Shown here piece by piece: positions 4,228 to 28,270 of a stretch of 50,164 nucleotides of DNA (position 1 is its first letter; every line of letters starts with the position of its first letter). The stretch lies in the NCBI GenBank assembly GCA_027487835.1, contig JAIYCU010000040.1, forward strand, positions 1-50,164, given 5' to 3'. A program made the position numbers and the translations under genes. This DNA comes from Bacteroidota bacterium (GTDB taxonomy: Bacteria; Bacteroidota; Bacteroidia; UKL13-3). Under the pieces are notes generated by a model that saw only the letters and a list, made by a program, of their open reading frames with translations, did no database searches and was not told where the DNA came from.

Positions 4228-4235
4228 TACTTTCG
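4228..4235 (+). promoter_or_regulatory. Possible -7 element for hldD
   Basis: TACTTTCG is one base from TAnnTTTG and lies 18-25 bp before the chosen hldD ATG. The nearest TTG (4204-4206) is 21 bp upstream instead of 19, so the call is weak. It favours the ATG at 4253 over the GTG at 4235. Confidence 0.3.
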
Positions 4236-4252
4236 TGCAATTGTCAAAACTT

Positions 4253-5221
4253 ATGATAGTAATTACAGGCGCTGAAGGATTTATTGGAAGCTGTTTAGTG
4301 GCTCATTTAAACCATAATCATTTTAATGATTTGGTCTTAGTCGATGATTTTGGGCATGTTGCAGGGCGAGAAATGAACCTGGAAGGAAAAAAATATTCTT
4401 TAAAAATTGAACGGAAAATATTTATCGAATGGCTTTCTGAACATGCCAATTTAGTGCAATTTGTATTTCATATTGGTGCTAGAACAGATACCACAGAGAA
4501 AGATGAAGCCATTTTTAAGACCTTAAACCTAGATTATAGCAAGGCGCTTTTTAAAATTTGTGCCCAAGAAGGCATTCCTTTGGTATATGCCAGCAGTGCG
4601 GCTACTTATGGCAATGGCGAGTTTGGATATGAAGATAGCGAAGATATTTTAGACCAATTATCGCCTATGAATCCTTATGGAAGGTCAAAAAACGACTTCG
4701 ATAAATGGGCCTTGGTTCAAACCGAAAAACCTTATTTTTGGGCCGGACTAAAATTTTTTAATGTTTATGGGCCAAATGAGTTACACAAAGGGAGAATGGG
4801 CAGTGTAATTATGCATGCCTACCATCAAATTAAAAATACCGGTGGGGTAAATTTATTTGAGAGTCACCGCCCAGATTACCAGCATGGAGAGCAAATGCGT
4901 GATTTTATTTATGTGAAAGACCTGTGTGAAGTGTGCCTTTTTCTGATGAAAACCCGCAAAAATTCTGGTTTATATAATCTAGGAACGGGTAAAGCTAGAA
5001 CTTGGAACGACCTTGCCTCAGCAATTTTTGCGGCTTTGCAGTTACCTGTAAACATCAATTATATTCCAATTCCTGCCGATATTCGTGATACCTACCAATA
5101 TTTTACCGAAGCGAATATGCAAAAGCTTATAGAAATTGGCTATCAAAAACCTTTTACTGCCATTGAAGATGGGGTAAAAGACTACGTTACAAATTATCTT
5201 GAAACAGGAAAATATTATTAA
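4253..5221 (+). CDS. hldD: ADP-L-glycero-D-manno-heptose 6-epimerase
   Basis: This extended short-chain dehydrogenase inverts C6 of ADP-D-glycero-D-manno-heptose to give the heptose donor for lipopolysaccharide core. The start MIVITGAEGFIGSCL carries the NAD(P)-binding TGxxGFIG at the very N-terminus, as in the family; an in-frame GTG at 4235 would add six residues. The active-site pieces are ASSAATYG (Ser) and the YGRSK motif in PMNPYGRSKNDFD. FFNVYGPNE and the RDFIYVKDL block are typical of HldD. At 322 residues it is the normal length. It heads a run of four same-strand genes; the next gene starts 5 bp after the stop. No other heptose gene is in the window. Confidence 0.93.
   Translation: MIVITGAEGFIGSCLVAHLNHNHFNDLVLVDDFGHVAGREMNLEGKKYSLKIERKIFIEWLSEHANLVQFVFHIGARTDTTEKDEAIFKTLNLDYSKALFKICAQEGIPLVYASSAATYGNGEFGYEDSEDILDQLSPMNPYGRSKNDFDKWALVQTEKPYFWAGLKFFNVYGPNELHKGRMGSVIMHAYHQIKNTGGVNLFESHRPDYQHGEQMRDFIYVKDLCEVCLFLMKTRKNSGLYNLGTGKARTWNDLASAIFAALQLPVNINYIPIPADIRDTYQYFTEANMQKLIEIGYQKPFTAIEDGVKDYVTNYLETGKYY
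4714..4723. repeat. GGTTTGAACC-family near-palindrome, copy 1
   Basis: The plus strand reads GGTTCAAACC, inside hldD, with codons GTT CAA ACC (VQT). Confidence 0.8.
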
Positions 5222-17707: not shown

Positions 17708-18496
17708 ATGAATTATTTTGAGGCAATAATACTTGCCATTATTGAGGGATTAACAGAATACCTGCCAGTTAGCTCAACTGGACACATGATTATTGCCTCT
17801 TCCATCATGGGTATTCAGGCAGATGAGTTTGTTAAATTGTTTACCATTGCGATACAATTCGGTGCTATTTTGTCGGTAGTTGTATTGTATTGGAAAAGGT
17901 TTTTCCAAAGCCTCGACTTTTATTTCAAACTATTTGTGGGCTTTTTACCTGCAGCAATTTTGGGCTTTTTGCTTAATGATTATATAGATGCCATGCTCGA
18001 AAATGTAATTGTGGTAGCTACTAGTTTAATGGTTGGTGGGGCCGTCTTACTTTTTATTGATGATTGGTTCAAACATACAGAAGAAGATCCAAGTGAACTT
18101 ACCTATGGAAAATCTTTTATAATTGGGTGTTTTCAAGTAATTGCAATGATACCAGGTGTTTCACGCTCTGCTGCTACAATTATTGGTGGATTAACTCAGA
18201 ACCTTACTAGAACTGCTGCGGCAGAGTTTTCTTTCTTTTTGGCCGTTCCAACCATGTTTGCTGCAACCGCCTATAAAATGTTGAAATTTCAACAAGATTT
18301 TGGTTTTACAATGGATAATGTTCCCATTTTAATAGTTGGAAATGTAGTTGCTTTTGTGGTAGCTATGATAGCTATTAAAGCATTTATTTCTTATCTTACT
18401 AAACACGGATTCAAGGTATTTGGTTGGTATAGAATAATACTGGGTGCTGCAATTCTTTTGTTGTATAGCTTGGGTTACCAATTGCAAATTATGTAA
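17708..18496 (+). CDS. uppP: Undecaprenyl-diphosphate phosphatase
   Basis: The enzyme recycles undecaprenyl diphosphate to the monophosphate carrier for cell-wall and polysaccharide synthesis; overproduction gives bacitracin resistance. Both active-site signatures are present: [18 protein letters not shown] near the N-terminus (catalytic Glu and His) and [13 protein letters not shown] in the middle. The 262 residues are mostly membrane helices, matching the family length. It sits third in the ftsX operon, with truB starting about 10 bp after its stop. Confidence 0.96.
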
Positions 18497-18506
18497 TTAT
18501 TGGATT

Positions 18507-19274
18507 TTGATTTTAGATATTAATGAAGATCTTGGAACAGTGCTTTTGGTGCACAAACCATTAGGCTTAACAAGCTTTGATGTTACTTATAAAATTAAAC
18601 GCCTTATTCATAAACGATGGCGAAAACATTTACCAGAGGCAATCGCTAAGAAAAAGAAGGTTAAAGTGGGTCATGCTGGCACTTTAGACCCATTGGCTAG
18701 TGGTTTATTGATTGTATGCATTGGTAAGGAAACCAAAAACATAGAAAGTTATATGGGTTTGGAAAAGGAGTACACAGGTACTTTTGTGCTAGGGGCAAGT
18801 ACCCCTAGTTTCGACAGAGAAACCCCAATTAGTCAAACTTATCCTATCGAACATATTACCTTTGAAGGTATTTTAGCAGCGGCTAAAGAACTAAGTGGGG
18901 AAATTGCGCAAGTACCTCCAGCTTTTTCTGCTATTAAGGTAGATGGGAGGAGAGCCTATAAAAGTGCAAGGGCAGGAGAGGAACTCGAGTTAAAAACACG
19001 GCAAGTTTGCATTAATGAGTTTGAAATAGTGAAGGCAGAAGGGCCAGAAGTTTATTTTAGGATTAGGTGCAGTAAGGGAACATATATACGCTCAATTGCT
19101 AGAGATTTTGGTGCAATTTTAGGGAGTGGCTCATATTTAGGAAGCTTACAAAGGACTAAAATAGGGGACTATGACCTTAAAAACGCATTTACCTTGCAAG
19201 AAATCGCAGAATACTTTGGCGAAAAAATTGAAATTAAAGAGGGGGCTAAAATAAGAAACTATGGTAATCAGTAG
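18507..19274 (+). CDS. truB: tRNA pseudouridine(55) synthase
   Basis: TruB makes the universal pseudouridine 55 in the T-loop of tRNAs. The catalytic Asp is in VGHAGTLDPLASGLLIVCIG. Other family blocks are VLLVHKPLGLTSFDV at the N-terminus, QVPPAFSAIKVDGRRAY and CSKGTYIRSIARDFG. There is no in-frame ATG near the start. TTG at 18507 gives MILDINEDLGTVLLVHKP, the normal N-terminal length, and 255 residues overall; upstream extension would run back into uppP. The C-terminus lacks a long PUA domain. It closes the operon and is followed by tRNA-Lys. Confidence 0.95.
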   Translation: MILDINEDLGTVLLVHKPLGLTSFDVTYKIKRLIHKRWRKHLPEAIAKKKKVKVGHAGTLDPLASGLLIVCIGKETKNIESYMGLEKEYTGTFVLGASTPSFDRETPISQTYPIEHITFEGILAAAKELSGEIAQVPPAFSAIKVDGRRAYKSARAGEELELKTRQVCINEFEIVKAEGPEVYFRIRCSKGTYIRSIARDFGAILGSGSYLGSLQRTKIGDYDLKNAFTLQEIAEYFGEKIEIKEGAKIRNYGNQ

Positions 19275-19309
19275 GTTAATTGGAATAATGAAAAAAAATC
19301 CAAAAAGGC

Positions 19310-19339
19310 TTGTGGAATCTCAATATACCTATATCTTTG
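19310..19339 (+). promoter_or_regulatory. Promoter of tRNA-Lys
   Basis: TTG (19310-19312), 19 bp, then TATCTTTG (19332-19339) is a perfect Bacteroidota promoter. It is followed by CACCCC; the same TTTGCA-plus-pyrimidine tract follows the tRNA-Val promoter and the two at the right edge. Confidence 0.8.
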
Positions 19340-19368
19340 CACCCCGTTACACATAAACAATGTAGCAT

Positions 19369-19441
19369 GATTCGGTAGCTCAGCTGGTAGAGCATTACAC
19401 TTTTAATGTAGGGGTCCTGGGTTCGAATCCCAGCCGGATCA
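19369..19441 (+). tRNA. tRNA-Lys (anticodon TTT)
   Basis: The acceptor stem pairs GATTCGG with CCGGATC (one G-T pair). The D arm is AGCTCAGCTGGTAGAGC, the anticodon loop is CTTTTAA within ACA..TGT, and the T loop is GGTTCGAATCC. The discriminator is A and CCA is not encoded. The 73-nt gene has its own promoter and terminator. Confidence 0.97.
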
Positions 19442-19445
19442 CATA

Positions 19446-19475
19446 AGCCTTTGAGAAATCAAAGGCTTTTTTTTT
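19446..19475 (+). terminator. Rho-independent terminator of tRNA-Lys
   Basis: The stem AGCCTTTGA / TCAAAGGCT (9 bp, GAAA loop) is followed by a run of T from 19467 to 19475, five bases after the tRNA. Confidence 0.9.
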
Positions 19476-19591
19476 GGTAATTGGCAACTAAAATTCTCCC
19501 AATTTTAGCATACATTTTAATTCTATAATTTCTCAATGAAATTAAGTAGATATTTTATATTTTACCATCTTTATTCATTCTAACCCATATC

Positions 19592-21046
19592 ATGCTTTTC
19601 AATTCAATTGATTTTGCTTTTTTCTTACCCATTGTTTTTGTTTTATATTGGTTTATTAGCCCTAATAATGTTAAGTATCAAAATTTATTGATTGTTATAG
19701 CTAGTTACTTCTTTTATGGGATGTGGGATTGGCGGTTTCTATTTTTGATATTATTCAGTTCATTGGTTGATTTCACTGTTGGACTTGCTCTCTTAAACCA
19801 AGAAGATTGGCGGAAACGAAAACTACTACTTTGGGCTAGTATTTTTATTAATCTTGGTATTTTAGGTGTATTTAAATACTATAATTTCTTTGTTCAAAAT
19901 TTTGTAGATGCTTTTTCATTTTTTGGAAAAGAAATAGAGATTAGATCCATAAACATCATTTTACCTGTTGGTATAAGTTTTTATACCTTTCAAACCCTTA
20001 GTTATGGTTTTGATGTGTACAAGAAAAAATTGATTCCTACTAAAAGCTTTATTGATTTTTCTGCCTTTGTAAGTTTTTTTCCCCAATTGGTAGCAGGGCC
20101 CATCGAACGAGCAACCCATTTATTACCCCAATTTTATAAGAAAAGGACTTTTAATTATGAACTCGCATCTGATGGTCTTAGACAAATGCTTTGGGGGTTT
20201 TTTAAGAAAATTGTAATTGCAGACAATTGTGCTAACCTAGCAAATCAGATTTTTGATAATTATACAGAATATCCAGGCAGTGCTCTGTTTTTAGGAGCCC
20301 TATTTTTTACTTTTCAAATTTATGGTGATTTTTCTGGCTATTCAGATATTGCAATTGGTTGCGCACGTTTGTTTGGATTTGACCTCATGCAGAATTTTAA
20401 TTTCCCTTATTTCTCTAGAGACATAGCTGAGTTTTGGAGACGTTGGCATATTTCGCTTTCTACTTGGTTCAGAGATTATTTATACATTCCACTCGGCGGG
20501 AGCAAGGGTAGTTTGTGGATGAAAATTAGAAATACTTTTATCATATTCATAGTAAGCGGATTTTGGCACGGAGCAAATTGGACTTTCATTACCTGGGGTG
20601 CTTTAAATGCACTATATTTTTTACCATTATTGTTAACCCAAAGAAATAGAATCAACCTTGATGGTATTGCTCAAGGCAAATTGATTCCTAAGTTTAAGGA
20701 TTTTATAGCCATGCTTTTTACATTTATATTAACTGTTATTGCTTGGATATTCTTTAGGTCGCAAAGCATGCATCAAGCCATTGAAATTCTAAATAGAATC
20801 TTTTCGGCTTCACTCTTTTCTAACCCCCAGTTAATGGATGTAAGGCATACCTATTTGGTTATGTTTTTAATCCTTGTTTTTATTGTTTTTGAATGGTTAG
20901 GAAGGGAAGGTAAATACGGATTTTCTTTCGTAATGAAGCTTAAACAGAAATGGATGCGATGGGTTTTTTACTGCTTTCTACTATTGATAATTTACTTGTA
21001 TGGATATCAGGGTGAGGCCATAGAATTTATTTATTTTCAATTCTAA
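19592..21046 (+). CDS. MBOAT-family membrane O-acyltransferase (AlgI/PatA-like)
   Basis: The 484-residue polytopic membrane protein matches the AlgI branch: an N-terminal IDFAFFLPIVFVLYWFI, the middle signature QLVAGPIERATHLLPQF, YGDFSGYSDIAIGCARLFGF, then FWRRWHISLSTWFRDYLYIP and the catalytic His in SGFWHGANWTFITWG. Such proteins move an acetyl or other acyl group across the inner membrane to a periplasmic partner that decorates alginate, peptidoglycan or other glycans. Here the partners are probably the three SGNH-like proteins that follow 10 bp downstream. The acceptor is not known; no alginate genes are present. Confidence 0.93.
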   Translation: MLFNSIDFAFFLPIVFVLYWFISPNNVKYQNLLIVIASYFFYGMWDWRFLFLILFSSLVDFTVGLALLNQEDWRKRKLLLWASIFINLGILGVFKYYNFFVQNFVDAFSFFGKEIEIRSINIILPVGISFYTFQTLSYGFDVYKKKLIPTKSFIDFSAFVSFFPQLVAGPIERATHLLPQFYKKRTFNYELASDGLRQMLWGFFKKIVIADNCANLANQIFDNYTEYPGSALFLGALFFTFQIYGDFSGYSDIAIGCARLFGFDLMQNFNFPYFSRDIAEFWRRWHISLSTWFRDYLYIPLGGSKGSLWMKIRNTFIIFIVSGFWHGANWTFITWGALNALYFLPLLLTQRNRINLDGIAQGKLIPKFKDFIAMLFTFILTVIAWIFFRSQSMHQAIEILNRIFSASLFSNPQLMDVRHTYLVMFLILVFIVFEWLGREGKYGFSFVMKLKQKWMRWVFYCFLLLIIYLYGYQGEAIEFIYFQF

Positions 21047-21056
21047 AAAGGTTGAA

Positions 21057-21953
21057 ATGAGGAAATTTACTTTAAATATTTTTGGTATTGGTTTGATTTT
21101 GGTGTTTTTCAACTGCATGCTATTTTTTATTGCCAATGAGATTTATTTTAATAAATATAAGTTTAAAGAATCCAGGAAATTTCACTCATTTATTTTTGCT
21201 GATTCCCATGGAAAGTGTTTAAATATCTACGGCGAAAGCAAAGGCATTTGCAATCTATCTGCTGGTTACGAGTCTTATTTTGATATGAATAGGAAATTAA
21301 AATACTTAATTCAACATAATTATGTAATTGATACCATTTACATATCGGTTGACGACCACTTATTAAGTCCTATTAGATGTAAAAACAATAATTTAGATAG
21401 AAGTATTCACTATTCAACAGCTCTAGAATTTGATCATTATTTTGAATATTTTTTCCTTAAATATATAAACTATTACCTGCCAATTTTTAATTTTAGGTTT
21501 AGGGTGGTGCTCAAGAAATTTCTCAAATCTCAAGCTGATTTTTATCTTTTCAATAAAAATAGTCAGTTAAACCAAAATGCGTGGATTAAATTTTCTGAAC
21601 AAGATAGAATTAGATTCGCTAAATCAACATATTCAGTTTCTTATCCTTATTATCAACGAAGTAAAGAACTTACTGCTTCATTTTTGGATATTATCAATAT
21701 TTGTAAGTCCAAAAATATCAATTTAATTGGGGTTAAATTCCCATTGTCTAGAAATCTAATTGAAGTGCTTGGCAATTCAAATTATGGTGCAGATTCCATC
21801 CTTAAAGCAAACGGATTTCCAGTGTTAGACCATAAATTAGATTTTGTAAATGATGATTGCTATTTTAGAGATGTTGATCATTTGAATAATACAGGAGGAA
21901 AGGAATTTGCCAAAAAGCTCTTTTCAATAACTACGAAAATTGGGAGTAATTGA
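21057..21953 (+). CDS. SGNH-like membrane-anchored protein, tandem copy 1
   Basis: The 298-residue product has one N-terminal TM (about residues 7-28) that would anchor it outside the inner membrane. IFADSHGKCLN contains a GDSx-like Ser50, and YFRDVDHLNNTGG gives the block-V DxxH (Asp272-His275), the order seen in SGNH/GDSL hydrolases such as AlgX, AlgJ and PatB. The motif KLIGVKFPLSRNLIEVLGNS-type segment (about 220-245) is conserved in all three copies. I infer an acyl transferase or esterase working with the MBOAT protein. The catalytic roles are read from motif spacing only, and the Gly of GDS is Ala here. Its TGA is one base before the next ATG. Confidence 0.65.
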   Translation: MRKFTLNIFGIGLILVFFNCMLFFIANEIYFNKYKFKESRKFHSFIFADSHGKCLNIYGESKGICNLSAGYESYFDMNRKLKYLIQHNYVIDTIYISVDDHLLSPIRCKNNNLDRSIHYSTALEFDHYFEYFFLKYINYYLPIFNFRFRVVLKKFLKSQADFYLFNKNSQLNQNAWIKFSEQDRIRFAKSTYSVSYPYYQRSKELTASFLDIINICKSKNINLIGVKFPLSRNLIEVLGNSNYGADSILKANGFPVLDHKLDFVNDDCYFRDVDHLNNTGGKEFAKKLFSITTKIGSN

Positions 21954-21954
21954 A

Positions 21955-22833
21955 ATGAGAAAATTCCTCTTAAATATAATTGTCTTCACCCTGGTTTTGG
22001 TGGCATTTAATATTGCTATTTTCTTTGTTGCTCAACTAGTTTACTATAAAGAATATCGGTTTAAGCCAACCAGAAAGTTTAAATCATTTATACTTTCTGA
22101 TTCGCATGGTAAATGCTTAAAGAATTACGGTGAGCCTTTTTTAATCTATAATTTTTCTGCAGGAAGTGAGTCTGTTTTGGATATGAATAGAAAATTGAAA
22201 TATCTCATTGCCAATGATTTTGAAATTGAAACAATTTATTTCTCAGTAGATGATCATATTTTAAGTCCACATAGAATAAAATACAGTAATTTAGATAGGA
22301 GTATATATTATTCTAATGTTTCTGAATTTAAAAGTTATTATCAGTATTTGGTAAATAGGTTCATTAAATATTATTTGCCAATTTTTCATACTAAAGTCCG
22401 ATTGGTCATCAAATCGTTGCTTATTTTAAAAGTAAAAAGCTTGTTATTTGATGTTAAGGATGAATTTAAAACAAAGGAATGGATTTACCTTTTGGATAGT
22501 GATCGAAAGAAGCAAGCATTGAAAAGGTTCAAAATTCAGTTTTCTTATAAGAATTCAAGTGAAGAACTAACTGCTTCATTTTTAGAGATTATTAATATCT
22601 GCAAAGCCAGAAACATCAGTTTAATTGGAGTTAAATTCCCATTGTCTAGAAATTTAATTAAAGTGCTTGGCAATTCAACTTATGGCGCAGATTCAATCCT
22701 TAAAGCAAACGGTTTTCCAGTGTTAGACCATAAATTAGATTTTGTAAATAAAGATGAGTACTTTTATGACGCAGACCATTTGAATTCTTATGGTGGTATC
22801 GTTTTGTCACATAAATTGTTTTTTAATAAATAG
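21955..22833 (+). CDS. SGNH-like membrane-anchored protein, tandem copy 2
   Basis: The 292-residue paralogue has the same layout: TM at 7-28, LSDSHGKCLK with Ser50, and YFYDADHLNSYGG with the DxxH. The ATG at 21955 lines up with MRKF of copy 1; a TTG 15 bp upstream overlaps the previous gene and is less likely. The C-terminal third is much closer to copy 1, even at the DNA level (about 21660-21850 against 22560-22750), than the middle. That points to recent duplication or gene conversion. Presumably it is a partner of the same MBOAT enzyme with a different acceptor or site preference, which is inference. Confidence 0.65.
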   Translation: MRKFLLNIIVFTLVLVAFNIAIFFVAQLVYYKEYRFKPTRKFKSFILSDSHGKCLKNYGEPFLIYNFSAGSESVLDMNRKLKYLIANDFEIETIYFSVDDHILSPHRIKYSNLDRSIYYSNVSEFKSYYQYLVNRFIKYYLPIFHTKVRLVIKSLLILKVKSLLFDVKDEFKTKEWIYLLDSDRKKQALKRFKIQFSYKNSSEELTASFLEIINICKARNISLIGVKFPLSRNLIKVLGNSTYGADSILKANGFPVLDHKLDFVNKDEYFYDADHLNSYGGIVLSHKLFFNK

Positions 22834-22875
22834 ATTTTTTAAATAGAGTGAATTTTTAATGTTCAATTTCCATTA

Positions 22876-23754
22876 ATGAAAAAGTTCCTTTCGAATATAC
22901 TTGGCTTCTTCTTCATAATTCTACTATTTAATTTTGTTGTATTTTATTTGGCGAAAGAAATTTACTTTAAAACATATCAGGTACAACCAAGTAAAAAGTT
23001 TAATTCATTTATATTTGCAGATTCTCACGGAAATTGTTTGTATAATTACGGTGAACTCTCTAATTGCTATAACTTTTCAGCTAGCAGTGATTCCTATTTG
23101 GATATCAGTAGGAAATTAAAATACTTGATTAAAAATAATTATAAAGTTGATCGTGTTTTCCTTTCTGTTGATGATCATATGCTAGGTCATAATAGGTTTA
23201 TAAATAACAATCTAAAAAGAAGTGTTTACTATTTAGAATTATCTGAAGTTGATAATTATCCTGAATATTTTTATGCTAAATATTTGCATTACTATTTGCC
23301 TATAGTTAATAAAAAAATTCGTATTCTGGCATCAAAGTTTTTGATTTCCCGCTTTTTATTTTTTTTCTTTCATATTAAAAATTTAGATAATACAAATAAA
23401 TGGGATCAACTTACAGAGTTTGAGAAGAACACTTTATCTGAAAAGCTTAAAGAAAATTCCTTTACTGAAAATAACCGGCATGAGGAATTAACAAAAACCT
23501 TTTTGGAAATAATAAATATATGTAAAAAAAGAAATATAAAATTGGTTGGTGTTAAGTTTCCACTTTCTAGAAATCTAATTGCCGCAATTGGGAATACTAA
23601 TTATGGGGCAGATTCAATCCTTATTTGTAGTGGTTTTCCAGTGCTAAATTATAAACATGTTTTTTCTCAAAATGATGATTATTTTAAAGATGCAGATCAT
23701 CTGAATGCAATAGGGGGACAAATATTAGCTGAAAAGCTTTTTAATCAATATTAG
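22876..23754 (+). CDS. SGNH-like membrane-anchored protein, tandem copy 3
   Basis: The 292-residue third paralogue starts MKKFLSNILGFFFIILLFNF (membrane anchor) and keeps FADSHGNCLY (Ser50) and YFKDADHLNAIGG (DxxH). It is the most diverged copy in the middle (residues 130-195) and is separated from copy 2 by 42 bp, unlike the 1-bp gap between copies 1 and 2. It ends the MBOAT run; the next gene is convergent. The same inferred role as its neighbours applies. Confidence 0.65.
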   Translation: MKKFLSNILGFFFIILLFNFVVFYLAKEIYFKTYQVQPSKKFNSFIFADSHGNCLYNYGELSNCYNFSASSDSYLDISRKLKYLIKNNYKVDRVFLSVDDHMLGHNRFINNNLKRSVYYLELSEVDNYPEYFYAKYLHYYLPIVNKKIRILASKFLISRFLFFFFHIKNLDNTNKWDQLTEFEKNTLSEKLKENSFTENNRHEELTKTFLEIINICKKRNIKLVGVKFPLSRNLIAAIGNTNYGADSILICSGFPVLNYKHVFSQNDDYFKDADHLNAIGGQILAEKLFNQY

Positions 23755-23833
23755 CTAGCAACTTTTTCTATTTTCATTCAAGTTAATAGGCTTCTGCCTT
23801 ATCAGCAATTTTTCTATTTAGTTTGATCCCAAT

Positions 23834-26728
23834 CTAATCACGTAAGACCTTGTAATTGTATAACTGCCCGTTAAGATCAACTAGTTGTAAGATATACATG
23901 CCAGATGGCTCCGGCAACTTGATAAGATGATTGAAATCCATGCTTAATTCTTCTGTTCTGTATGTTTTGCCTAATAAATCCAAAATCTGGTAACGCTTAA
24001 TTTCAGAGCCGCCCAAGTTTAACATCACCTCGCCATTACTCGGATTAGGATAGATTTGAATCTGATTTAGGGCCTCCTCGCTAAGTCCAACACTCATCAC
24101 CCTGATAAATTGAAGAGCCTGCAACTTTACTGTGGTATCGCTTAAGATATAATCCAAATAAATATCATAAATACCAGGCTTATTAAACCTCACATAACAA
24201 GTATCAGATTGGGTGTTGGTTCCTCGAACAAAAGTGCCAATGCTATCTGGCAAAATCCATCTTTTCTGATGCGGAAAGATGCTGTTGTTTAAGGTAAGGT
24301 ATATCTCTTGATTGACAGCAATATTGGTATTGCTAGCATAAATGCTCATTTGATTATAGGGGAACTTATTGTCTGGTGTCACAGTTATTTCAGAGATAAA
24401 AAAGGCACTGTCTGTAACCCTTAACAGCAATACGTTATTGTTATGGTAAGCGCCAAATGCGCAGGACTTTACATTATTATAATAACTGCCGTTGGCAAAA
24501 ATGTCTTGAACCAATTCAATTTTTCCTGTTACATTAAATGAATCATTTAGGAGGTGGTTCTTAAATTGTACAATGCCTGAAGTCGAGTAAGTAAAATCCT
24601 CTATGCGCTTTGTGGGTGAAACCAAGCCTGCATTGTTGGGCAAGGCCAAATGAAGGGCGCTGCTATTAAGGTTTGCTGGATTTCTAAATATATTTTTATT
24701 TACCTTGCCATCTTCGGATAAAAGAAATGTTCCAATATCATATCTTGGACTATTTACGTAAGAATAATAGGTACCTGAAGCCAATACCATTAATCCTCTG
24801 TAATCATAAGATAAATCTGTACAAACAAAACTAAGCTTTTGATTCCTAAAATTTATTATCGTATCGGTAAAGTAGCCATTTATTCCAAAGGTCACATCTA
24901 AATCCCCATTGCTTTCTATTTTCTTAATACCAAAATTGCCCCCTACTAAAAACTTACCATCCTTTAAAACCATGGCTGCTTTAAGGCCTCCCAAAACTTG
25001 GAAGTTTAGGCTAGGATCTAATTGTCCGTTTGCTAAAAACCTTAAGAATCTATTTCCTGCCAATACAATTCTGTCTTGTTCATCGGTGAACAGTTTAATA
25101 AACCCGGCATTGGCCAAAGAAAATATAGACTTTCCATTCGTGGCAAAACTGCTATCCAATGTCCCATTGGCAAGGTAGCCATGCAATTGGGCTTGCATAT
25201 TACTTTCTGCATAAGCCAACAAAAATTTATTGTCGTTTATAAACCTTAGGCTAAAGGCATTGTCTCTAAACTGATTGATATTTAAATAGATTAAACCATT
25301 CTGGCCAAAACTAGAATCTCTCTTGCCATCTGACATAAACTTAACCAAAAACAATTGCAAGGGGTTGATGATACTATTGGCCAAGCAAATCATTTCGCCT
25401 TGGTTATTAGATGCCGTGGCCAGCAAAACAATTTTAGATTTATTAGCAATTACGTTGCCAATAAACTTAATAAAACCTCCTCCTTTAAAGGCATTGAAAT
25501 TCTGATTTCCAGCTAAATCAAAGGCATGATAGCTTAGTTCATTATTATAATCATATTTTATTAAGTTGTTTGGTTTAAGTCCTAAAACCAATAATTGTTG
25601 CTTATGGATACACACTAAATCTACATCTGTACCATTATAGGCCTTATAATAATCAATGAAAAAAGTGGTATCAATACTTCCATTAGGTTGGTATTTTCTG
25701 ATGCTAAATCGATTGTAAACATAAAGGTTCCCAGAGGTGTCTGACTCAGCGCCTTTAAAACTGTTCCATTGTAAATTGAGTACACCATTGATGCCAAAAT
25801 TATCTTCTCTTCTGCCATCAACTTTCCATTGAATGGCCGCATTGGTGGTGCTCACAATTTCTATTTGTGTAATGGCTAATACATTTCCATTTGGCAATAC
25901 TACTAGGTCTAACAATAGGTCGTCTTTTGTACCAATAACCTCTATCGATTTTCCATTTTGTGCAAAAGATGAGTCTAAGATTCCATTTGACAATAATTTT
26001 GAAATTCCAATTTTTGCTTTTCCATTTAAAAATACCTTCCCCACAACCCAAATATGATTATTTGGCAAAATGTATAATTTCTGTGCTAGGTCGGCCGAAC
26101 CAAAATCTATGGAGCTTACTCCATTGGTATTAAAACTTGAGTCTGTTTCTCCATTTGCATTAAAACGATATACTTTGAAATTTTCTCCTAAAGCATCATT
26201 GGTAAGCATTGCAATTTTGCCATCTGATTGCAAAGCAATATCCTGCACATAATCGTTTAAATAAGTAAAGGGTTTTTTTAAGATTCCACCATTACCAAAA
26301 CTGCTATCTATGGTGCCATTGGAGAAATATTTTGCCAAGTAAACATCTCTTAAAGTTACACTGCTATCCGAACCTGCCACCAATATGGTTTGGTTTGAAC
26401 CGATGCAGACTTTTGAGAAAATAAAGTTTTGAGGGAATGAGAGGTATAATTCACCATTTATGCCAAAACTACTATCTGGATTAAGAAGTTCATCAAAGCA
26501 TTGGATAAATAAAACAGTTTGCTGAAAACGAGTTGTTTTGGCTGCCCTATAAGATTTAGTTGTAGATAGTTGAAAGACCTCTATAGATTTTATATCCGCT
26601 CCAACAATATAATTGTTAAATTGATGTTTGAGAATTCCCTTGCCGTTATTATAGGAAGGGTTGGTACCATCGGAAAATCCTATTTTGGTTATCGCAAGTA
26701 GCAGTAAAAAGAAACTTAACTTTTTCAT
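23834..26728 (-). CDS. Secreted delta-60/DUF5122 repeat protein with T9SS sorting domain
   Basis: The 964-residue product has a signal peptide (MKKLSFFLLLLAITKIGFSD) and about ten degenerate delta-60 repeats of the form G-x-L-D-S-S-F-x-x-N-G. Examples are DSSFGINGELYL, GTIDSSFGNGGIL, GTLDSSFATNGKS and GDLDVTFGINGYF, spread over residues 60-660. These repeats build a beta-propeller-like structure. The C-terminus (about 890-964) is a type A T9SS domain: IQIYPNPSNGEVMLNL, the strand QILDLLGKTYR, then GMYILQLVDLNGQ and a basic end. It should be exported through the outer membrane by the Por system and kept at the surface or released. The ligand is unknown. It is monocistronic and convergent with the SGNH genes. 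Confidence 0.88.
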   Translation of the reverse strand: MKKLSFFLLLLAITKIGFSDGTNPSYNNGKGILKHQFNNYIVGADIKSIEVFQLSTTKSYRAAKTTRFQQTVLFIQCFDELLNPDSSFGINGELYLSFPQNFIFSKVCIGSNQTILVAGSDSSVTLRDVYLAKYFSNGTIDSSFGNGGILKKPFTYLNDYVQDIALQSDGKIAMLTNDALGENFKVYRFNANGETDSSFNTNGVSSIDFGSADLAQKLYILPNNHIWVVGKVFLNGKAKIGISKLLSNGILDSSFAQNGKSIEVIGTKDDLLLDLVVLPNGNVLAITQIEIVSTTNAAIQWKVDGRREDNFGINGVLNLQWNSFKGAESDTSGNLYVYNRFSIRKYQPNGSIDTTFFIDYYKAYNGTDVDLVCIHKQQLLVLGLKPNNLIKYDYNNELSYHAFDLAGNQNFNAFKGGGFIKFIGNVIANKSKIVLLATASNNQGEMICLANSIINPLQLFLVKFMSDGKRDSSFGQNGLIYLNINQFRDNAFSLRFINDNKFLLAYAESNMQAQLHGYLANGTLDSSFATNGKSIFSLANAGFIKLFTDEQDRIVLAGNRFLRFLANGQLDPSLNFQVLGGLKAAMVLKDGKFLVGGNFGIKKIESNGDLDVTFGINGYFTDTIINFRNQKLSFVCTDLSYDYRGLMVLASGTYYSYVNSPRYDIGTFLLSEDGKVNKNIFRNPANLNSSALHLALPNNAGLVSPTKRIEDFTYSTSGIVQFKNHLLNDSFNVTGKIELVQDIFANGSYYNNVKSCAFGAYHNNNVLLLRVTDSAFFISEITVTPDNKFPYNQMSIYASNTNIAVNQEIYLTLNNSIFPHQKRWILPDSIGTFVRGTNTQSDTCYVRFNKPGIYDIYLDYILSDTTVKLQALQFIRVMSVGLSEEALNQIQIYPNPSNGEVMLNLGGSEIKRYQILDLLGKTYRTEELSMDFNHLIKLPEPSGMYILQLVDLNGQLYNYKVLRD
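26392..26401. repeat. GGTTTGAACC-family near-palindrome, copy 4
   Basis: The plus strand reads GGTTTGAACC, inside the delta-60 gene (minus strand), with codons GGT TCA AAC CAA (GSNQ). Confidence 0.8.
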
Positions 26729-26896
26729 AGTGTAATCTTTAGCCTGTCAAATTATCTACGTCAAATATAACTTATTATTAATAGCCAAGTCGGTAAAAAA
26801 CGAAAGATTATTTTGAACCCTGCACTTAAACCTATTGCTAAATTTATATTTTTGATACTAGATTGCATTTCCTTAGCCATAACAAATCAAATAAAC

Positions 26897-28270
26897 ATGA
26901 AACAGAAATTTTACCTAATTGCCCTATTTTCTATCTATGCCACTTTTGCTTCTGCTCAAATTTCACCTGATTTGGCGGGCCGATTGCAAAACACTTTAGA
27001 TAGTATTTGTACAAAATATAAAGTGAAAGGCGCTTCTGCCGCTTTGCTTTTGCCTAATGTTGGCACATGGACAGGGACCAGTGGCATCTCTAAACCTGGT
27101 GTACCTTTAACGCCTCAAATGGCTTTGGGCATGGGCAGCAATACCAAAACCTATATTGCTACACTTCTGCTAAAATTACAAGAAAAGGGCTTGGTAGATT
27201 TAGATGATTCGATAGGAAAATGGATTCAAGGTTATCCCAATATCAATACCCGCGCAAGCATCAGACAATGCCTTAACCATACCTCTGGAAACAAAGAATA
27301 TTTGAATGCTAGTTTTAATGATAGCTTGCTTTTAAACCCTTCTAAAATTTGGACAATGCAAGAGGTGTTAAGCACAGTTGGGACACCAAACTTTGTACCT
27401 GGTGCCTCATGGGGATATTCTAATACAAATTTTGTTATTGCGGGAATTATTATTGAAGAAGTAGCTAAAATGTCTTTTGCCAATGCCATGAGTGTTTATG
27501 TACTTGAACCTAACAATTGGAATAGCACTTTCTTTTTTGGAGAACCAAATCCAGCGCCTATTCCTAGTCAATGGACGATGAACCTTACTGGAACTAGCAT
27601 GGTAGAAATGAATACCTATCCCATTAACATTATTAACCAGTTGTTTAGTGCTGCTGGCCCCGCAGGGGCCATGATGGTAACAGCAGAGGAGAATGTTCAA
27701 TTTTGGCACAAACTCATCAAAGGTAATTTGCTTACTAAGGCTTCACTTCAAGAAATGACCACTACGGTAAGGCTAAATAATTTAGTTTCTTATGGCTTAG
27801 GTATCTTTAGATACAATAGAGAAATTAACAACCGCACCATTTATTGCCATGGAGGCACTTTCATTGGTTTTATTAACGAGAATGCAGTAGATACGCTTTC
27901 TGGTGTTACTATTTCTGTTTTAACAAACCAAGATAGTTTGGGTAACGATTTTCTGCTAAGTGTTGTCATTCCTGCTTTGCACAAACATGTGCTCAATGCA
28001 CCTCCAACTGCAATCGATAAGCTGCAAAGCCAAAGTCAAGTATTGGTTTACCCTAATCCCGCCAACGAGTTTGTAACTATTGAAAGTTCGATGTTAAACT
28101 CAACTGATGTTTGCCAAATCCTCGATATCAATGGTAGAATTGTAATGCAACAGAACTTGGCTCAAAACAAAATTAATGTAGCCGAACTAAAAGATGGCAT
28201 TTATTTTCTTCAAGTAATTTCTGAGAATAAACAAACTGTTTTCACCCAAAAATTGGTAGTAACCCATTAA
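26897..28270 (+). CDS. Secreted serine hydrolase (class C beta-lactamase fold) with T9SS sorting domain
   Basis: The 457-residue protein begins MKQKFYLIALFSIYATFASA (signal peptide); upstream in-frame codons from 26813 lie before it and are unlikely to be used. The catalytic set of the penicillin-binding-protein/beta-lactamase fold is visible: SNTK (SxxK) in MGSNTKTYIATLLLKLQEKG, YSN (YxN) in SWGYSNTNF, and HGG in YCHGGTFIGF. The C-terminal 80 residues are a T9SS domain (VLVYPNPANEFVTIESSM, then GIYFLQVISE, ending in KLVVTH). Members are D-aminopeptidases, esterases or peptidoglycan-active enzymes; the substrate is unknown. It is convergent with the glucan locus, with 10 bp between stops. Confidence 0.92.
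   Translation: MKQKFYLIALFSIYATFASAQISPDLAGRLQNTLDSICTKYKVKGASAALLLPNVGTWTGTSGISKPGVPLTPQMALGMGSNTKTYIATLLLKLQEKGLVDLDDSIGKWIQGYPNINTRASIRQCLNHTSGNKEYLNASFNDSLLLNPSKIWTMQEVLSTVGTPNFVPGASWGYSNTNFVIAGIIIEEVAKMSFANAMSVYVLEPNNWNSTFFFGEPNPAPIPSQWTMNLTGTSMVEMNTYPINIINQLFSAAGPAGAMMVTAEENVQFWHKLIKGNLLTKASLQEMTTTVRLNNLVSYGLGIFRYNREINNRTIYCHGGTFIGFINENAVDTLSGVTISVLTNQDSLGNDFLLSVVIPALHKHVLNAPPTAIDKLQSQSQVLVYPNPANEFVTIESSMLNSTDVCQILDINGRIVMQQNLAQNKINVAELKDGIYFLQVISENKQTVFTQKLVVTH

Follow-up and report, generated by a model that had tools for sequence, protein, structure and literature searches.

A single MBOAT O-acyltransferase gene with three tandem SGNH-type partners in a Bacteroidota genome

In the window, i.e. 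the whole 50,164-nucleotide stretch of contig JAIYCU010000040.1 analysed here, one MBOAT O-acyltransferase gene is followed by three tandem paralogues, SG1, SG2 and SG3, whose products are SGNH proteins as judged by profile comparison and modelling. The kind of locus is ordinary; the number of partners is unusual. The arrangement suggests that one donor serves several finishing enzymes, and we consider it somewhat probable that the block encodes a PatA/PatB-like module for acylating envelope glycans, with its finishing enzyme in three forms, working as in the relay proposed below.

The MBOAT gene (484 aa, 19592..21046) opens the block, followed on the same forward strand by SG1 (298 aa, 21057..21953), SG2 (292 aa, 21955..22833) and SG3 (292 aa, 22876..23754), with intergenic gaps of 10, 1 and 42 bp. 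The ORF list starts SG2 at a TTG at 21940; starting instead from the ATG at 21955, SG2 has 292 aa and is colinear with SG1 and SG3. SG2 has an orthologue (80% aa), La, at locus L010 of a sister genome. The preliminary description had reported an MBOAT gene and three tandem paralogues of about 295 aa, with coordinates that proved right. At the 5' edge of the block, a terminator-like hairpin with a 10-pair stem and a T run (19445..19468, +) follows a tRNA-Lys gene (19369-19442). Judged by spacing, the four genes probably form one transcription unit. Promoter-like sites number 14 vs 26.6 in shuffles, i.e. below expectation, and three weak terminator-like stems lie in the coding sequence of the block (20282, 20597 and 21986). 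The next gene downstream of SG3 is a DUF5122 gene on the opposite strand. Among the window genes no polysaccharide cluster adjoins the block, as had been noted before, but envelope genes do occur in the window: UppP (17708-18496) about 1.1 kb and an ADP-heptose epimerase gene (4235-5221) about 14 kb upstream of the block. Genome-wide, three Poly_export and six Wzy_C proteins were found, families that also match in 4/14 and 9/14 control genomes, respectively, and the AT3-type SGNH family PF19040 has one match, away from the block.

The first protein belongs to the MBOAT family by its PF03062 match (97.3 bits, E 1.4e-27; Pfam gathering cut-off 27), and it matched the DltB structures 6bug and 8jem (E 2.6e-22 and 5.1e-22); the DltB-like model TIGR04091 scored 136 bits, under its cut-off of 375. 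The conserved MBOAT histidine in WHGANW, His326 (codon 20567..20569, +), is the same in 11/11 aligned MBOATs, and its equivalent is required for PatA labelling (PMC12148441). The protein ends in FIYFQF (residues 479-484; 21026..21043, +), a predicted acyl-shuttle hexapeptide with Tyr481, of which F479, Y481, F482, Q483 and F484 are unchanged in all 11 aligned MBOATs. The pattern F.Y..[FY] forms the C-terminal end of 74/82 MBOAT ORFs, truncated and split ORFs included, and a C-terminal acyl-shuttle motif of this kind has been shown for PatA (PMC12148441). Apart from two loci with the same partner subfamily, MBOATs that share 57-65% identity with that of the window have partners that share only 17-22% with SG1-SG3. 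Because such alike MBOATs have unlike partners, specificity seems to lie with the partner, and the MBOAT to be generic.

SG2 and SG3 are 57% and 50% identical to SG1. Searches of SG1-SG3 against Pfam and NCBIfam returned nothing significant (the best hits, E 0.07 and 0.12, were SG3 matches to unrelated families): no match assigns them to PatB, the DltD model PF04914 gave no match at E <= 1, and Pfam found no second domain. Their homology to the partners of other MBOATs is clear. An hhalign comparison with 43 such partners gave a full-length match (probability 99.5, E 1.8e-22), and a partner profile built without window or L010 sequences matched SG1, SG2 and SG3 at 3.4e-20, 2.8e-20 and 5.8e-23, in line with the SGNH-like character first attributed to them. 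A PDB search yielded no helpful match when the three paralogues were the only query; the 43-partner profile matched the acylhydrolase 4ppy (E 4.8e-4), with further SGNH rows weaker (>0.03). DUF1574 was matched by 15/43 outside partners at E <= 0.1.

SG1 was modelled with AlphaFold from an input that included one added viral-contig relative; confidence is moderate overall (mean pLDDT 64.8) and low (<50) at residues 264-274. The model has a helix at residues 2-32, hydrophobic by eye and a predicted membrane anchor, followed by an SGNH domain. Ser50 lies just after the first core strand and His275 directly ahead of the last helix. Plain Foldseek gave no match for this model at E 0.001. VIA-align 2, which re-ranks the 1000 best Foldseek chains and is a second look, not an independent search, aligned it with TesA (Z 14.0, rmsd 3.2, 160 aligned), the PatB proteins of N. 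gonorrhoeae (Z 12.3, rmsd 4.4, 173 aligned) and C. jejuni (Z 12.2, rmsd 4.2, 168 aligned), OatA (Z 11.8, rmsd 3.5, 154 aligned) and, with a large rmsd of 6.6-8.0, DltD (Z 8.4-9.2, 195-203 aligned). Rows 1-49 (Z 8.4-14.5) are mostly proteins that we class, partly by title, as GDSL/SGNH; the others are designed scaffolds (ranks 1, 10 and 16) and the unclassified 8a2n (rank 30), and rank 50 is an SDR (Z 7.8). By these best 50 rows the SG1 model has an SGNH fold, which the preliminary description had proposed to look for by structure prediction. AlgX and AlgJ are missing from the best rows, which we do not count as evidence against them. A model of SG2 built from 5 sequences (mean pLDDT 57.1) yielded no useful Foldseek result.

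Block I of SG1 reads ADSHG, with the Ser50 codon at 21204..21206 (+), and block V runs from Asp272 to His275 (21870..21881, +); Ser50, Asp272 and His275 are present in all three paralogues, and D49, S50, H51, D272, D274 and H275 are invariant among them by alignment. For comparison with outside partners, alignment A3 used 43 of 50 candidates (L027, L038, L083, L084, L096, L104 and L111 were left out); the 56-member group further contains L087, L094 and L100, likewise outside the 43, and adding all ten gives 53. In this recount the block I Gly, the Ser and the block V His are each found in 53/53. The block V Asp, taken from the start as part of the triad, is less constant outside the array than within it (D/N/E 43/8/2 of 53), and the more distantly related G188 and G308 have Asn there. 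The DSHG motif, initially regarded as unusual, is not, as His directly follows the catalytic Ser in 10/43 and 10/53 outside partners. By alignment, the true oddity of the array partners is the lost block I Gly, which is replaced by Ala or Ser and is present in 43/43 outside partners of the smaller set as well.

The oxyanion-hole Gly of block II is likewise not found in the array: the aligned residue 71 is Tyr in SG1 and Ser in SG2 and SG3, and the position holds Gly in 26/53 outside partners (alignment-based). At the presumed block III site SG1-SG3 read SVDDH, and Asn occurs there in only 3/53 outside partners; PatB1 makes no use of the block III Asn (PMC9487903). OatA and PatB also deviate at block II, where Ser or Asn accompanies transferases (PMC12148441). 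These residues bear on whether at least one SG is an esterase that removes acyl groups, Ape1-like beside PatA/PatB. Ester hydrolysis is common among SGNH folds and the PatA/PatB operon includes Ape1 (PMC12148441), but the presumed block II residue is Ser, Tyr or His throughout SG1-SG3, La and Lb, another copy in the sister genome, and SG1-SG3 are all paralogues in one subfamily. Although the Tyr of SG1 is neither of the two transferase residues, we regard this explanation as highly improbable.

To see how unusual three partners are, MBOAT loci were surveyed, starting from 113 MBOAT matches in 59 genomes, of which 60 were examined, with further loci from other searches. Setting aside seven of 81 MBOAT ORFs as truncated left 74; L078, L081, L116 and L130 (all from G066, 68-70% G+C, with the MBOAT ORF missed by the ORF picker) and L033, without an MBOAT ORF, were not counted, and related genomes each count on their own. 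One SG stands beside the MBOAT in 53/74, and three in 1/74, the window MBOAT only. By score, 18/74 are without a downstream partner; among these, four have a profile-positive partner directly upstream, two (L092 and L099) are MBOATs split over two ORFs, followed by the partner, and several adjoin a member of another partner subfamily. A second partner at L091 was missed by the profile, and pairs are therefore undercounted by at least one. A 99-genome profile search (E <= 1e-6; in some genomes 22 of the candidates scored) gave one triple, the window locus, and one pair among the candidates scored; a 395-genome search scored, as a rule, six candidates per genome. A search for other copies in the same genome, as recommended earlier, found five more MBOATs, each beside a single SGNH-like gene. 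One SG likewise adjoins the MBOAT in the nearest single-copy relatives, G188 and G308. As to the acceptor class, related modules adjoin glycan genes (L031 and L138) or, on a predicted viral contig, integrase and repressor genes (L139). Scanned for SG relatives, viral contigs gave no hit and genome contigs a single locus, L010. Open-access titles and abstracts contained nothing on three tandem SGNH partners per MBOAT, which does not imply absence from print.

The survey also touches on a serial scheme of the kind proposed for AlgJ/AlgX: a first SG would be loaded by the MBOAT and would in turn load a second, polymer-contacting SG. A division of labour between two SGNH proteins is described for alginate (PMC4148444) and proposed for cellulose (PMC10302187). 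However, SG1-SG3 are alike in length and plan, with no second domain by Pfam, and single partners prevail in the survey and in G188 and G308, although gene number is not functional proof; such a scheme is very unlikely here.

We then consider how the copies have diverged. In SG1, SG2 and SG3 dN is below dS, a rough comparison because dS is often saturated or could not be computed. Divergence peaks mid-gene, at about alignment codons 106-203, where dN among the three is 0.55-0.66. Further along, at codons 205-269, a segment of SG1 (21657..21851, +) and one of SG2 (22555..22749, +) look homogenised: 76% of polymorphic sites are shared vs 34% elsewhere (permutation p 0.0005), and dS is 0.37 vs 1.43 overall. 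With all polymorphic sites, this is the sole within-window pair with a signal (SG1-SG3 p 0.16, SG2-SG3 p 0.74); other pairs gave 0.0005 (SG3-Lb), 0.003 (SG1-La), 0.01 (SG1-Lb) and 0.044 (SG2-La), ten pairs in all with uncorrected p values. Restricting the test to third positions leaves SG1-SG2 at 0.0005 and gives 0.02 for SG3-Lb and 0.83 for SG1-La; the signals of SG1-SG3 (0.0015) and SG2-SG3 (0.019) fall in other segments. The test permutes polymorphic sites as if rates were uniform along the gene, so that conserved segments can mimic exchange. Lb, from the sister genome, is SG3-like at codons 208-290 (p 0.0005) and closer to SG1 over most of 61-203, with weak tree support for the SG1-like part (62-68%) and weaker support for SG1+SG2 in the exchanged segment (46%). 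The copies thus seem to have exchanged segments while their middle region diverged, and since SG2 and La are orthologous, they are probably older than the split from the sister genome.

Three copies that carry out the same reaction on the same acceptor, with the array merely raising the amount of enzyme, would fit the alike C-terminal segments of SG1 and SG2, as of copies kept for one job, and the identical catalytic residues. The middle-region dN, the differing block II residue and the probable age of the copies speak against such redundancy, which we hold to be rather improbable, though the strongest of the alternatives. The SG1-SG2 signal and the mosaic look of Lb also fit an array that exists for recombination, yielding new mosaic transferases and a varied surface glycan. 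Yet only two genomes are involved, the tree support is weak, and conversion occurs among tandem copies even without a selected role; this explanation is unlikely. Barely less doubtful is the idea of a diversity set, in which the MBOAT would load whichever SGNH protein docks and recombination would pair the conserved C-terminal half with divergent middles. If true, the surface acylation pattern would shift fast between lineages with the donor machine constant.

In the favoured PatA/PatB-like relay, the MBOAT would load Tyr481 of FIYFQF with an acyl group from acyl-CoA (acetyl from acetyl-CoA being the likeliest), and this motif would pass it to Ser50 of any one of the three predicted membrane-anchored SGNH proteins, each presumably able to dock on the single MBOAT. 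These would acylate hydroxyls on a glycan of the periplasm or surface, probably differing in acceptor or position through the divergent middle region, and gene conversion would keep the C-terminal segment alike. What sequence and model show directly is the gene block, homology, motifs, SGNH fold, dN below dS and statistical exchange signal. Three different acceptors would be compatible with the divergent middle region; a single shared acceptor is possible because SG2 and SG3 are 50-57% identical to SG1. The locus is a natural test of where the specificity of MBOAT-SGNH acylation resides, as it asks, within one cell, whether a single shuttle peptide can serve several SGNH proteins, each with its own acylation site. 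In summary, the preliminary interpretation is partly supported: an MBOAT with three SGNH-type partners stands, whereas the DSHG oddity and the AlgJ/AlgX likeness do not.

Among known systems, PatA/PatB of Neisseria and Campylobacter (peptidoglycan O-acetylation) shares the MBOAT with the conserved His and C-terminal FXYXXF, and an SGNH partner that has an N-terminal helix, with its Ser towards the N-terminus and its DxxH towards the C-terminus (PatB Z about 12). It differs in having one SGNH protein, not three tandem paralogues, and Ape1, not an opposite-strand DUF5122 gene, as the downstream neighbour; no family model places SG1-SG3 in PatB, and the acceptor here is a putative glycan. DltB/DltX/DltD (teichoic acid D-alanylation) resembles the block in its DltB-like MBOAT, Tyr shuttle and DltD match (Z 8.4-9.2). 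Here, in contrast, the shuttle motif is fused to the MBOAT and there are three partners; no DltX-, DltA- or DltC-like genes were seen among the flanking genes read. In a Gram-negative bacterium one would not expect teichoic acid. In AlgX the catalytic Ser comes after the Asp-His pair in sequence. Ser50 precedes Asp272-His275, the reverse of this order, and on this ground the AlgJ/AlgX family was rejected for SG1-SG3 and is a poor model for them. AlgI/AlgJ/AlgX/AlgF and WssFGHI do share more than one SGNH protein per MBOAT, but AlgJ and AlgX have distinct roles and SG1-SG3 are paralogues of one plan; AlgX carries a carbohydrate-binding module and has D174 and H176 as its Asp-His pair (PMC4148444). 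The single-partner MBOAT-SGNH modules of related genomes have the same MBOAT family, mostly with the FIYFQF end, and a homologous partner; unlike the array with its three partners, they have one each and keep the block I Gly.

The MBOAT gene (19592-21046, + strand; 484 aa) is the first of four genes in a block and is followed on the same strand by three SGNH-type paralogues, SG1 (21057-21953, 298 aa), SG2 (21955-22833, 292 aa counted from the ATG at 21955) and SG3 (22876-23754, 292 aa), with successive intergenic gaps of 10, 1 and 42 bp. A tRNA-Lys gene (19369-19442) and a terminator-like hairpin (19445-19468) lie 5' of the block, whose G+C content is 29.2%, compared with 35.6% in the remaining window; the window makes up one contig of a genome that comprises 3.38 Mb in 46 contigs and is 99.92% complete. 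Identity to SG1 is 57% for SG2 and 50% for SG3, so the repeat is real rather than a chance resemblance, which bears out the preliminary description of one MBOAT with three tandem paralogues.

Pfam and NCBIfam models gave no significant match to SG1-SG3. We built an alignment from the neighbours of other MBOATs (43 of 50 candidates aligned, the window and the sister-genome locus left out), and in a profile-profile comparison the SG subfamily of the window matched it over the full length (probability 99.5, E 1.8e-22). A genome search with the same alignment recovered SG1, SG2 and SG3 at E values of 3.4e-20, 2.8e-20 and 5.8e-23, respectively. Against solved structures, the alignment gave weak matches to SGNH acylhydrolases (best E 4.8e-4); DUF1574 was matched at E <= 0.1 by 15 of the 43 aligned partners. 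An AlphaFold model of SG1, of middling confidence, predicts a helix at 2-32, a strand at 44-48 ahead of Ser50 and a last helix at 278-295 directly after His275. VIA-align 2 placed this model close to E. coli TesA (Z 14.0), two PatB entries (Z 12.3 and 12.2) and OatA (Z 11.8), and matched DltD at Z 8.4-9.2 with a large rmsd, in a list headed by a designed scaffold and with an SDR at rank 50 (Z 7.8). Plain Foldseek with the model returned no significant match.

Equivalents of Ser50 and His275 are present in all 43 outside partners, and in 53/53 once the ten omitted partners are added. A His follows the catalytic Ser in 10 of these 53, so the DSHG motif is not unusual, contrary to what had been proposed from the sequence. 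The SG subfamily (SG1-SG3, the sister-locus partners La and Lb, and two more distant relatives, in genomes G188 and G308) is instead marked by Ala or Ser at the block I Gly, which is Gly in 53/53 others, and by a DDH close to the presumed block III. Asp272 is replaced by Asn in G188 and G308, both of which retain Asp274. The presumed block II residue is Tyr in SG1 and Ser in SG2 and SG3; Ser or Asn at this position accompanies transferases (PMC12148441).

By PF03062, the genome holds six MBOATs, and the five others have one SGNH-like neighbour each (downstream in four, upstream in one). The loci examined contain 81 MBOAT ORFs, of which 7 are truncated and were set aside; the 74 counted have one downstream partner in 53 cases, two in 2 (the sister locus L010, and L095), three in 1 (the window) and none recognised by the partner profile in 18. 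At L091, a second partner is present that the profile overlooked. A search of 99 genomes (E <= 1e-6) found partner matches in 48, adjacent ones being limited to the window's three and two in G067. The SG subfamily itself is rare: across 64 genomes from the family, its members were confined to this genome and the sister genome G007, with a weak match in G011, and among the candidates scored in 395 class genomes (few per genome) in these two, G188, G308 and, weakly, G068. In G188 and G308 the partner is single-copy and adjoins its MBOAT. Partner duplication has occurred more than once, since L095:3956-6031 and L091:3955-6005 also carry MBOATs with tandem SGNH pairs, from other partner subfamilies. 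In two genomes of one genus (L092:2590-4046 and L099:5115-6574), the MBOAT reads as two ORFs, behind which lies a full-length SGNH partner; gene breakage, a sequencing error and a genuine split are the candidate explanations.

The sister locus L010 carries two partners: La is orthologous to SG2 (80% aa), and Lb is nearest SG3 at both ends and mostly, not at every step, nearer SG1 in codons 61-203. A permutation test identified an SG1/SG2 segment at codons 205-269, where 76% of polymorphic sites are alike versus 34% elsewhere (p 0.0005) and SG1-SG2 dS is 0.37 versus 1.43 overall, and a common SG3/Lb segment at codons 208-290 (p 0.0005). Segment trees agree with the test; only SG3+Lb is well supported (codons 204-270, 97% for nucleotides and 92% for amino acids), SG1+SG2 reaching 46% in the same codons and Lb+SG1 62-68% in codons 1-203. 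The three sequence types thus probably predate the split of the two genomes, the sister lineage having merged or lost one of them. Pairwise dN/dS values are 0.33/1.43 (SG1-SG2), 0.38/2.21 (SG1-SG3) and 0.42/1.50 (SG2-SG3), and 0.11/1.86 between the two MBOATs; dN is below dS in all copies where computable, many dS values being saturated, and is highest in the middle region. L010:1996-8420 and window positions 18444-28270 have a downstream serine-hydrolase gene in common; L010 has glycosyltransferase-like genes upstream and no DUF5122 gene between the SG and serine-hydrolase genes. The neighbourhood is rearranged.

Partners of MBOATs 57-65% identical to the window's share 17-22% identity with SG1-SG3, except for the subfamily members L137 (38%) and L138 (27%). 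In the MBOAT identity bands of 50-60% (218 pairs) and 60-70% (69 pairs), partners over all pairs share a median of 17% identity (range 11-48). This pattern fits a generic acyl exporter, with specificity residing in the partner. No gene in the window names an acceptor. About 1.1 kb upstream is the gene for UppP, an enzyme of glycan lipid carrier recycling, and ~14 kb upstream that for an ADP-heptose epimerase of LPS core synthesis, both being general envelope genes; the genome also encodes 3 Poly_export and 6 Wzy_C proteins, a common trait. Related modules at L031 and L138 adjoin sugar and glycan genes, as named from their translations, and at the sister locus a GT2-like gene lies upstream. The acceptor is likely a surface or periplasmic glycan, peptidoglycan being possible.

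Related genes also occur on viral contigs. On one predicted viral contig (IMGVR_UViG_2684623028_000001; L139:1313-6361), a full MBOAT-SGNH pair, its MBOAT 57% identical to the window's, has integrase and CI-like repressor genes as neighbours, a vicinity where phages often carry surface-altering genes, and sits as a lysogenic-conversion module would. Three others (L142, L143 and L148) have MBOAT genes near tail or depolymerase, endolysin, and portal or terminase genes, and MBOAT genes seem to travel with phages.

The window MBOAT scores above the Pfam MBOAT cut-off and also matches solved DltB structures, and His326 in WHGANW is kept in 11/11 aligned relatives. Its C-terminus, FIYFQF, is the strongest pointer to mechanism and was absent from the preliminary description: F479, Y481, F482, Q483 and F484 are kept in 11/11 relatives, and F.Y..[FY] is the ending of 74 of the 82 MBOAT ORFs in the comparison, which took in truncated and split ones. 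In PatA, the Tyr of this hexapeptide undergoes auto-acetylation from acetyl-CoA, assisted by the conserved His, and the acetylated hexapeptide is a donor for PatB (PMC12148441). Two MBOAT-SGNH modules, L029:7360-13970 (G000:C22; by NCBIfam) and L040:430-5192 (read from sequence), lie beside acyl-AMP ligase-like genes, and the L029 MBOAT is without the FXYXXF end; given these ligase-like neighbours, both modules may perhaps use a carrier-bound donor, as in Dlt. For the three paralogues of the window, we infer as the best reading that each would serve a different acceptor. Overall, the four genes form a genuine MBOAT-SGNH acylation block of the PatA/PatB kind: its mechanism is ordinary, and what is unusual is its set of three paralogous, apparently recombining finishing enzymes.
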